Shown: positions 22,348-26,350 of the stretch, in pieces
How positions within the stretch are numbered: position 1 is the first letter of the stretch
How the letters are laid out: each line of letters starts with the position of its first letter
Source of the DNA: Candidatus Rokuibacteriota bacterium
Lineage (GTDB): Bacteria; Methylomirabilota; Methylomirabilia; Rokubacteriales; CSP1-6
Assembly (NCBI GenBank): GCA_003220495.1
Contig: QHSP01000050.1
Coordinates: 1-64,000 of the forward strand
Length of the DNA stretch: 64,000 nucleotides
Direction of reading: 5' to 3'
The notes under the pieces: generated by a model
Database searches by the model: none
Told to the model about the DNA's origin: nothing
What the model saw: only the letters and a program-made list of their open reading frames with translations
Made by a program: the position numbers and the translations under genes

Positions 22348-22422
22348 TGGTTGGGGCGGGAGGATTCGAACCTCCGAATACGGGATCCAAAGTCCCGCGC
22401 CTTGCCGCTTGGCCACGCCCCA
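22348..22422 (-). tRNA. tRNA-Gln (UUG)
   Basis: A 75-base cloverleaf on the minus strand has acceptor TGGGGCG pairing with CGCCCCA, discriminator A, an encoded CCA, anticodon loop CTTTGGA with TTG, and T arm GGTTCGAATCC. It lies immediately upstream of prs and downstream of ispE, in line with the common ispE-tRNA-Gln-prs order. Confidence 0.96.
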
Positions 22423-23433: not shown

Positions 23434-24234
23434 TCAACGGATGGGCTGTGTTTTCGCCCCTTTCGGGATCGTCAGGGTGAAGCGCTCCTCGTCGATCTCT
23501 TCGCCCTCGACCAGGTTCCGGTAGGTGACGGACCCGGTGACATACGACATGGCCGCGTCGAGGTCGAAGCCCTCCAGCGCCCCGGCCCCGTCGCGCCGAT
23601 ACTTGATCAGCGCGTTGAACCGGCTCCCGAAGATCTGCCGCTGCTGGATCACGCCGGTCCCGAGGTCGAGCCACACGCGCTGGCGCCTACCCGCCCCGTC
23701 CACCAGATTCAGTGACGGTCCCGTGGCGTCTGGAGCGAGTACCTCTGCGCTTCGGAGGTCGCGTGGCCCGGCGAAGCGGCCGGCCAGCGCCGAGACGAGG
23801 TCGTCGGAGTCCAGAGGCAGGCGAAGAACCTTTGAGATCGTCTCAGCGTCGGCCGGCCCCACATGGGCCTCGTTCTTCAGCGCGTTGTAGGCGCTGATCT
23901 GTCCATCACGGACGGCGACGACCATGAGCGGCGGGCCAAACGGCGAGAGCGCCTCCAGGCGGACCGAGCTGGGCGCCTTGATCAACAGAACCCCCTGCAG
24001 GCGCTGGCGCTCACCGCCCTTCGTCAGCGAGACGTCGGCGAGAGCACGCATGCTGGTGAACTCGCTGTAGCGCTCGGCGAGCAGGGCGAGCGCTCGCCGG
24101 GCGTCGTCGCTTATCGGTTCCCGAGGGGGTGCGGTGGCGCAGGCGGCGACCAGCGCCACCTGCAGCCAGAGCAGGAGACTACTGAGAGGCCTTCGGGCCA
24201 CCCTTGACCCGGCGCTGGCGATCCTTGAGGTCAT
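23434..24234 (-). CDS. LolB/DUF4292-like outer membrane lipoprotein
   Basis: The 266-residue protein has a signal peptide with lipobox LVAAC near residue 32, then a LolA/LolB-like beta-barrel half: EFTSMRALADVSLTK, a RLEALSPFGPPLMVV strand pair and a RYDQP-like end region with LTIPKGAKTQPIR. It probably handles lipoprotein or lipid insertion at the outer membrane. The ATG at 24234 lies inside the upstream TPR gene (56-base overlap) but has an AGAAGG site; GTG 24201 is an alternative with less overlap. The order TPR lipoprotein, LolB-like, ispE matches the frequent lolB-ispE-prs arrangement. Confidence 0.75.
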   Translation of the reverse strand: MTSRIASAGSRVARRPLSSLLLWLQVALVAACATAPPREPISDDARRALALLAERYSEFTSMRALADVSLTKGGERQRLQGVLLIKAPSSVRLEALSPFGPPLMVVAVRDGQISAYNALKNEAHVGPADAETISKVLRLPLDSDDLVSALAGRFAGPRDLRSAEVLAPDATGPSLNLVDGAGRRQRVWLDLGTGVIQQRQIFGSRFNALIKYRRDGAGALEGFDLDAAMSYVTGSVTYRNLVEGEEIDEERFTLTIPKGAKTQPIR

Positions 24235-26350
24235 TGACCTTCTTCTTGACCCCGTCGGCGGCCGGGTCGAGCTGGAGGACCTTTTCCCACGCGGCCAGGG
24301 CGTCCTCGTCGAGGCCGTTCTTGACCAGCGCGTCGCCGAGGTGCTCGTAGATCACGGGATCCGGCTCCTTCGTCTTGATGACGGCGCGCTTGAGCTCCTT
24401 CAACGCCTCCGGATACTTGCCTTGCTGGTAGTACGCCCAGCCGAGACTGTCGATGAAGTAGCCGTTCTCGGGCTCGAGGTCGAGCGCCTTGCCGATCAGC
24501 TTGATCGCCTCTTCCAGGTTTTGGCCGCGCTCGGCGTACATGTAGCCGACGTAGTTGTACGCCTCGGCGTTCTTGGGATCGAGCGCGATCACGCGGTGGA
24601 AGGACTTGACCGCGTCGTCGAATCGCGATTGCTTCTCGTAGACGACTCCGAGCTGAAAGTGCAGGTCTTTCTGCTTGTCGTCGAGGCCCAGGCCTTCCTG
24701 GAGCGTCTCGGCCGCCCGGTCATACTCCTTGGCCCGGTAGTAGGCGGTGCCGAGATAGAGGAACAGCTCGGGCCGCTTGGGCTCCATGTTGACGGCTTCA
24801 CGCAGGGTCGAGATCGCCTCGTCGTAGCGCTTGGCCCGACCGTAGAGGAACCCGAGCTGGACTCGCGCGTCGATGGACCGCGGGTCGGCTCTCAGGATCC
24901 GCTCGAGCTCGCCCTTCGCCTCGGCGTCCCGCCCCGCGTCCATGTACGTGGTGGCGAGGAAGTAGCGGGCCCGGATATTCGCGGGCTCGAGCGCCACGAC
25001 GCGCCGAAACGCCTCGATGGCCTTGTCCCACATCTTTTGCTCGTAATAGACGGCGCCCAGCTTCATCCACGCGCGCGGATTCTGCGGCGTGGCCTCGGCG
25101 ACCCCTTCGAGCTCGGTCTGGGCCTCGGGCAGGCGCCCGAGCCGGATCAGAAGGTCGGCCAGCTTGTCAGCGAACGCCGGATTGTCCGGATTGGCCTTGA
25201 CCGCGCGCCGATAGACGTCGATTGCCTCTTCGTTTTTGTGCAGCGCCTCGCCGTAGACCGCGCCGAGAGCGCTCCAGGCTCCATCATGATCGGGGTCGAG
25301 CTCTACGGCCGCGGTGAGACGCGCGATCGCCTCGTCCCAGGACTCGGTCTCGATCGCAAGGCGACCGAGGAGGAACTGCGCCTGGGCCAGCCGCGGCTGC
25401 TGCTCGACCAGCCGCAAGAGCACCCCCCGCGCCTTGTCGTACGACTTCTGCTCGACGTAAATACGCGCCAACGTGAGATAGGGCTCCTCGGCGCCCGGGC
25501 TGAGCTGGATCGCGCGTTCGAGCTCGGCCTCGGCTTCGGGAATCTTCCGTTGCGTGCGCAGAAGCTCGGCCAAGGTCGTGTGGGTCGAGACCTGGTCGGG
25601 TGCGAGCTCGACGGCCCGGCGGGCCGCGGCCACGGCTTCGTCGAGGCTGTCAGCGCGCATGAGCAGTTGGGCGAGCTGGGTCCAGAGGGCAGCCGAATTC
25701 GGATCCTTCTTGATGGCGGTCCTCATGTACGGGACCGCATCCTTGAACCGACCCCCCTGCACGTACATCTGGGCGACGGTGTAGGAGTAGTACGCGTCGC
25801 TGCGGGGGTCGACGGGCACGACGCGGCGCGGGATCTCGTCGTCAGCGGTGATCGTCGGCTGCCCCGAGCTGGCGCAGCCCGCCAGCGCGGTCGCGGCGAC
25901 GATCACGGTCAGTCCCGGCCACGCCTTCGTCAACAGGCGCCGCGCCGCCGAGGCGACATCCGCGTCGGGAATGGCCGCCGTCGCTTCGTCGATCTCCCGC
26001 AACGCCCGCTGGTCGAGCGCCGGAGTAGGCCGTGCAGTCGAACGCGGAGACGAATCGGTCTCGATCGTTCCCGACACGAAGCGCAGCGACCGAACGGCGT
26101 CGAAACGTGCGCTGAGACGCCGTGTCAGCTCTTCGCTGCGGAGCGTGAGCTCGTGGAGCCAGGGCGAGTTATCGACCGCCACGGTGAGACAGCCGTCGAC
26201 GAAGCTGCGGGCCTGGGCGCGGCGAGCGGCCTCGGCCCCCACGACCTGAGGCCAGGCCCGACGGATCCGATACTCGAGTAGTCGATCTCGCAGGTTAGGG
26301 ACCGCGGTGAGCAACAGATCAGCGACGGCGCGCGGCGGTCGGCTGTCCAT
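24179..26350 (-). CDS. In-frame fusion of DciA (DUF721) to a TPR lipoprotein
   Basis: The 723-residue frame starts with a DUF721/DciA domain (about 1-100; LLEYRIRRAWPQVVGAEAAR, then VAVDNSPWLHELTLRSEEL), which in many bacteria helps load the replicative helicase. Without a stop it continues into a signal-peptide-like segment (AWPGLTVIVAATALAGC, lipobox Cys159) and about fourteen tetratricopeptide repeats ending near 715. Cytoplasmic DciA and an exported lipoprotein should not share one chain. An internal TTG at 25933 could start the lipoprotein separately, though no good ribosome site precedes it. A genuine fusion, an internal start and a lost stop codon are all possible. ATG at 26350 is clear. 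Confidence 0.85.
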   Translation of the reverse strand: MDSRPPRAVADLLLTAVPNLRDRLLEYRIRRAWPQVVGAEAARRAQARSFVDGCLTVAVDNSPWLHELTLRSEELTRRLSARFDAVRSLRFVSGTIETDSSPRSTARPTPALDQRALREIDEATAAIPDADVASAARRLLTKAWPGLTVIVAATALAGCASSGQPTITADDEIPRRVVPVDPRSDAYYSYTVAQMYVQGGRFKDAVPYMRTAIKKDPNSAALWTQLAQLLMRADSLDEAVAAARRAVELAPDQVSTHTTLAELLRTQRKIPEAEAELERAIQLSPGAEEPYLTLARIYVEQKSYDKARGVLLRLVEQQPRLAQAQFLLGRLAIETESWDEAIARLTAAVELDPDHDGAWSALGAVYGEALHKNEEAIDVYRRAVKANPDNPAFADKLADLLIRLGRLPEAQTELEGVAEATPQNPRAWMKLGAVYYEQKMWDKAIEAFRRVVALEPANIRARYFLATTYMDAGRDAEAKGELERILRADPRSIDARVQLGFLYGRAKRYDEAISTLREAVNMEPKRPELFLYLGTAYYRAKEYDRAAETLQEGLGLDDKQKDLHFQLGVVYEKQSRFDDAVKSFHRVIALDPKNAEAYNYVGYMYAERGQNLEEAIKLIGKALDLEPENGYFIDSLGWAYYQQGKYPEALKELKRAVIKTKEPDPVIYEHLGDALVKNGLDEDALAAWEKVLQLDPAADGVKKKVNDLKDRQRRVKGGPKASQ

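Follow-up and report, generated by a model that had tools for sequence, protein, structure and literature searches.

The locus raises the question of how a helicase loader of the cytoplasm and a lipoprotein of the envelope can be encoded in a single reading frame, and what would become of such a chain once it is made. On the minus strand of the window (the whole stretch of 64,000 nucleotides that was analysed), 723 codons run from an ATG at position 26350 to position 24179 with no interruption. The first-pass annotation had described a DciA domain in frame with a lipobox lipoprotein and had called the fusion unusual; we agree on both points. The features of the locus are:

24179..26350, minus strand: dciA-TPR lipoprotein fusion ORF, 723 aa (open frame with ATG; full-length in-frame homologues in 17 species)
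26078..26311, minus strand: DciA / DUF721 domain, residues 14–91 (PF05258, Foldseek)
25916..26011, minus strand: DciA C-terminal tail hairpin, helices 114–125 and 130–145, with RRLLTKAW at 137–144 (AF2; motif conservation)
25931..25933, minus strand: TTG, Leu140 of RRL[LM]TK, a proposed internal start judged not to be a start (codon variation)
25874..25921, minus strand: predicted signal peptide h-region and lipobox LAGC with Cys159 (hydropathy, PS00013)
24182..25807, minus strand: TPR domain, 15 helix pairs and a capping helix, residues 182–717 (Pfam TPR families; AF2)
23434..24234, minus strand: downstream gene for a DUF4292 lipoprotein, LolB-like by position (PF14125, E 3.8e-6)

The DciA domain was recognised at residues 14–91 in the protein-level Pfam search (E 2.9e-16; 59.9 bits against a Pfam cut-off of 24) and again in the genome scan (E 9.5e-17). 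The AF2 model of this part has the KH-like fold, and its top three Foldseek matches in the PDB are all DciA, namely 7ykm (E 3.5e-5) and 8a3v C and D (E 5.9e-5). In the AF2 model the domain is followed by a hairpin (114–125 and 130–158) whose second helix reaches the Cys, then by a disordered stretch and finally by the TPR superhelix. The tail motif, RRL[LM]TKA[WR], is conserved equally in fused and separate DciA.

The residues at the junction are R137-R138-L-L-T-K-A-W-P-G-L-T-V-I-V-A-A-T-A-L-A-G-C159. Sixteen uncharged residues (KD 2.16) precede Cys159 in the LAGC lipobox, the last charge being that of K142, and the lipoprotein signal was called from the PROSITE PS00013 pattern, which is matched here, together with hydropathy. 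The signal peptide is thus placed at residues ~137–158, behind DciA and internal, unlike that of an ordinary lipoprotein, which stands at the N-terminus. By analogy, the second helix of the tail may double as its n-region. Beyond the junction, AF2 placed 15 TPR-like helix pairs (182–694) and a capping helix, with pLDDT values mostly above 90; many Pfam TPR families were matched as well. The model slightly raises the “about fourteen” repeats counted at first pass.

The genome is a 98% complete MAG with one DciA match, namely the fusion, and each of the other fused genomes likewise has a single DciA. Profile scans of the genome found neither a second DciA nor a DnaC/DnaI elsewhere: PF01695 matched a protein of 444 aa, plus one weak match of 24 bits, and since the 444 aa protein is DnaA no recognisable DnaC/DnaI is left. 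As judged from these profiles, the fusion is the sole recognisable helicase loader, in line with the mutual exclusion of DciA and DnaC/DnaI. The replicative helicase gene dnaB lies on the same contig (39667–41088, plus strand), ~13 kb from the dciA fusion, and LspA and RseP are both encoded. The ATG of the DUF4292 lipoprotein gene is located 56 nt inside the TPR gene (24179–24234, minus strand), and a later in-frame GTG would give it a shorter signal peptide. A tRNA-Gln (ttg) gene (22348–22422, minus strand) separates ispE from prs in this operon-like array.

Fused and separate forms among relatives

The relatives compared were MAGs of the uncultured soil bacteria Candidatus Rokubacteria / Rokuibacteriota, separately assembled and all of draft quality. 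Within Ca. Rokubacteria, 17 species from seven genera carry the in-frame fusion, and every one of the nine species in the window's genus is among them; the remaining genomes of the family have dciA and the TPR lipoprotein as two genes, and among the 95 genomes of the phylum no fusion was found outside the family. Long frames in G031, G036, G062, G063 and G083 were rejected as fusions because their openness runs upstream of DciA.

In the separate state, 33 of the 37 interpretable junctions consist of a -1 stop-start overlap (ATGA or GTGA) that places the lipoprotein in frame +2, and the separate lipoproteins are preceded by a clear SD (mean -6.5 kcal/mol versus an in-ORF background of -2.95). 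Stop-start overlaps of this type couple translation through termination-reinitiation (PMC10666635). Comparison of the two states establishes this overlapping ATGA pair as the ancestral-looking arrangement, converted into one frame by changes at the junction. The distance from RRLLTK to the Cys is 48 nt in the window's genus versus 68–95 nt, commonly 95, in the nearest separate genera, and on this evidence a net loss of ~47 nt removed the stop, the SD and the start of the lipoprotein in the window's genus.

Parsimony required five changes for the fused state on the tree of the TPR protein and four on the tree of DciA, TPR and the next gene. Since one exact overlap is common to the separate state, we read these changes as several gains and not as losses, and the fusion has probably been made several times. 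A single origin, with all fusions in one clade, was rejected in the AU test (p 2.4e-49); when G010 was left out the p value was 0.0099, which is weaker than it appears because the groups were chosen after the tree had been seen and not named beforehand.

With every genome a draft MAG, an assembly or sequencing error that joined two genes has to be considered. This is effectively refuted by a junction found in 17 species from several independent projects, among them one on Lake Tanganyika-type lake water (L126), with indels that stay in frame and purifying selection that spans the junction. The lost stop suggested by the first-pass annotation is likewise rejected, the frame being intact in 17 species of seven genera. 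Two-gene relatives with a stop at the junction, which it had named as evidence against its reading, do occur in the sister genera; they do not overturn the fusion, which is genus-wide and recurrent and departs from an ancestral-looking ATGA overlap.

Some loci depart from these two states. At L044, L105, L106 and L057 (G014, G072, G073 and G028, from two sister genera) DciA ends right after DUF721, at ~104–111 aa, without the tail hairpin presumed to bind DnaB, and the lipoprotein start overlaps its stop. G028 has two DciA genes (L057 and L058), the second on a small contig, and in G029 the DciA frame (L059) is broken ~50 residues into the domain, probably by an assembly frameshift. Neither a DciA match nor an orthologue of the TPR lipoprotein was seen in G017 and G069 (genus g10, completeness at least 90%), the congener G068 being fused.

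Translation of the two parts

The TTG at 25933 had been put forward at first pass as a start for a separate lipoprotein. This codon is a position of the DciA tail that reads TTG, ATG, CTG or CTC among the nine species of the genus (CTC in G005), and the position is equally Leu or Met where the lipoprotein lies in another frame. At the window's TTG the SD-like value is -5.0, and 24% of random positions within ORFs score as well or better. Suitably placed codons were found in six of the 17 fusions (ATG in G004, G020 and G078; GTG in G015; TTG in G000 and G008), the ATG of G078 having a strong SD-like match (-9.8), and they speak for internal initiation, in which the lipoprotein would be translated separately from TTG 25933 or nearby and the read-through product would be minor or without a role. 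In five other fused species (G002, G005, G007, G013 and G034), however, the 45 codons before the Cys contain no ATG, GTG or TTG, and in G005 and G034 even CTG is missing between -35 and -13. The spacing from RRLL to the Cys points the same way: it is 48, 60, 63, 66, 72 or 78 nt in the fusions, always 0 mod 3 even where members of a single genus differ (60 and 66 nt), whereas the anchored separate cases are all 2 mod 3. Junction indels confined to multiples of three are what one would expect of a lipoprotein that relies on DciA for its frame. We therefore regard internal initiation as very unlikely to be the main route, and since no stop codon ends the DciA part the fusion would be made in any case; the six species with a suitable codon, including those with an ATG (G004, G020 and G078), may yield some separate lipoprotein as a minor product. 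Translation of DciA and the TPR lipoprotein as a single chain is, on these comparisons, strongly supported.

Selection has acted on both parts. Within the fused genus, dN/dS is lowest in DciA (0.08) and highest in the 20 codons that follow the Cys (0.68), with the TPRs (0.15), the tail helix (0.19) and the h-region (0.27) in between, and such purifying selection on both halves implies that both are in use. The value for the DciA domain is below those of genera with free DciA (0.22–0.29), and the invariant residues of DciA, e.g. DNSPW, are kept in the fusions. The genome comparison thus establishes a conserved and selected in-frame fusion that has arisen repeatedly and has no conserved internal start.

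Probable fate of the chain at the membrane

We infer the cleavage, localisation and membrane function of the chain, as well as its DciA activity, from sequence. The first-pass annotation had considered the fusion topologically contradictory, an objection that does not apply to an N-in/C-out signal anchor, which keeps DciA on the cytoplasmic side and places the TPRs beyond the membrane. ToxR, CadC and RodZ are precedents for this orientation. In all fusions the residues ahead of the uncharged stretch carry a net charge of +2 to +7, which is what an N-in orientation needs. Cys159 is invariant in the 16 aligned fusions despite the fast evolution of the next 20 codons, and PS00013 is matched by 16 of the 17 fusions, the lipobox of G019 (LPAC) failing. 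At +2 the fusions have Ala or Val, and the window protein has Ala; by the E. coli rule either residue would fit sorting to the outer membrane, Asp being the retention signal. The lipobox, the charge, the presence of LspA and the +2 residue together lead us to propose that LspA separates the lipoprotein from a DciA that keeps a hydrophobic tail.

We consider it probable that the fusion is a natural precursor of two proteins, one N-in/C-out chain cut by LspA at Cys159 into the lipoprotein and a tailed DciA. Both would be made as one polypeptide, in which the tail helix RRLLTKAW would act as the DnaB-binding element (by analogy) and as the positively charged n-region. Sec would insert the chain N-in/C-out, Lgt would lipidate Cys159 and LspA would cleave just before it, a cut that likely parts the two proteins. 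The TPR lipoprotein would then travel to the outer membrane (+2 Ala), and DciA would retain the hydrophobic helix 143–158 at its C-terminus and be at least transiently tail-anchored in the inner membrane, its remnant perhaps being trimmed later by RseP. The loader would in this way be made 1:1 with, and via the maturation of, an envelope lipoprotein.

The DciA tail of Vibrio folds as a helix hairpin on DnaB (PMC9912922), and in Caulobacter both DnaB binding and viability depend on leucines in the C-terminal extension of DciA (PMC9825169, PMC12547741). Anchoring of DciA at the membrane is plausible. A further step, tentative and somewhat doubtful, is that the loader acts as an inner-membrane protein, the signal peptide staying attached and keeping the DnaB-binding helix at the surface of the membrane; loading would then take place there and the supply of the loader would be tied to lipoprotein maturation.

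The chain could also be cut and yet have no membrane function, the fusion being a neutral result of tight operon packing and soluble DciA being freed by proteolysis of the signal remnant. Genes that already overlapped and were probably co-translated, several fusion origins, unfused sister genera and an encoded RseP are all consistent with this reading, which we take as a serious possibility although it falls short of probable: the C-terminus binds DnaB elsewhere (PMC9825169, PMC9912922), an extra hydrophobic tail of 14–16 residues is not obviously harmless, and DciA is, if anything, under stronger constraint in the fused genus. The continuous helix that AF2 draws through the junction (130–158) would suit an uncut bitopic protein, with DciA covalently linked via one transmembrane helix to periplasmic TPRs as a replication-envelope sensor. 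Such a sensor is unlikely, as the Cys and the lipobox are retained in all fusions within a fast-evolving stretch, LspA is encoded and position +2 holds Ala or Val instead of the Asp retention signal.

If the two-protein precursor is real, one bacterial chain would hold both a lipoprotein of the envelope and an essential replication protein of the cytoplasm, and a lipoprotein maturation enzyme would separate them. Membrane-tethered helicase loading, and an effect of LspA inhibitors on replication in such organisms, would become testable. The comparison also illustrates how a 4-nt stop-start overlap can repeatedly become a fusion that spans a compartment boundary.

Comparison with known systems

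Each half belongs to a known family; a literature search on DciA fusions did not find the joint architecture. The N-terminal part resembles DciA (DUF721, PF05258) in its domain, its fold (7ykm, 8a3v), its tail hairpin and key motif, its single copy, the lack of a recognisable DnaC/DnaI and the presence of DnaB, but known DciA is free and cytoplasmic, whereas here a signal peptide and then a lipoprotein follow on from its C-terminus. The C-terminal part shares the lipobox, the TPR superhelix and the gene order with the TPR lipoproteins encoded beside lolB/ispE/prs, and differs from them in that it has no start codon or ribosome-binding site of its own and takes its n-region from DciA.

ToxR, CadC and RodZ offer a likeness in layout, with a nucleic-acid-binding domain at the cytoplasmic N-terminus, a single hydrophobic helix and a C-terminal domain in the periplasm; they undergo no lipobox cut, whereas the fusion has an invariant lipobox Cys after the helix. 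In Bradyrhizobium, fbcH encodes the cytochrome b/c1 precursor, the product of one bacterial gene that is split in two at an internal signal sequence. The fusion is similar in that one bacterial chain would yield two proteins by a cut, here predicted, at an internal signal. The two fbcH products, however, function together in a single membrane complex, and their separation implies signal peptidase I, whereas the fusion would combine a cytoplasmic replication protein with an exported lipoprotein and depend on signal peptidase II.
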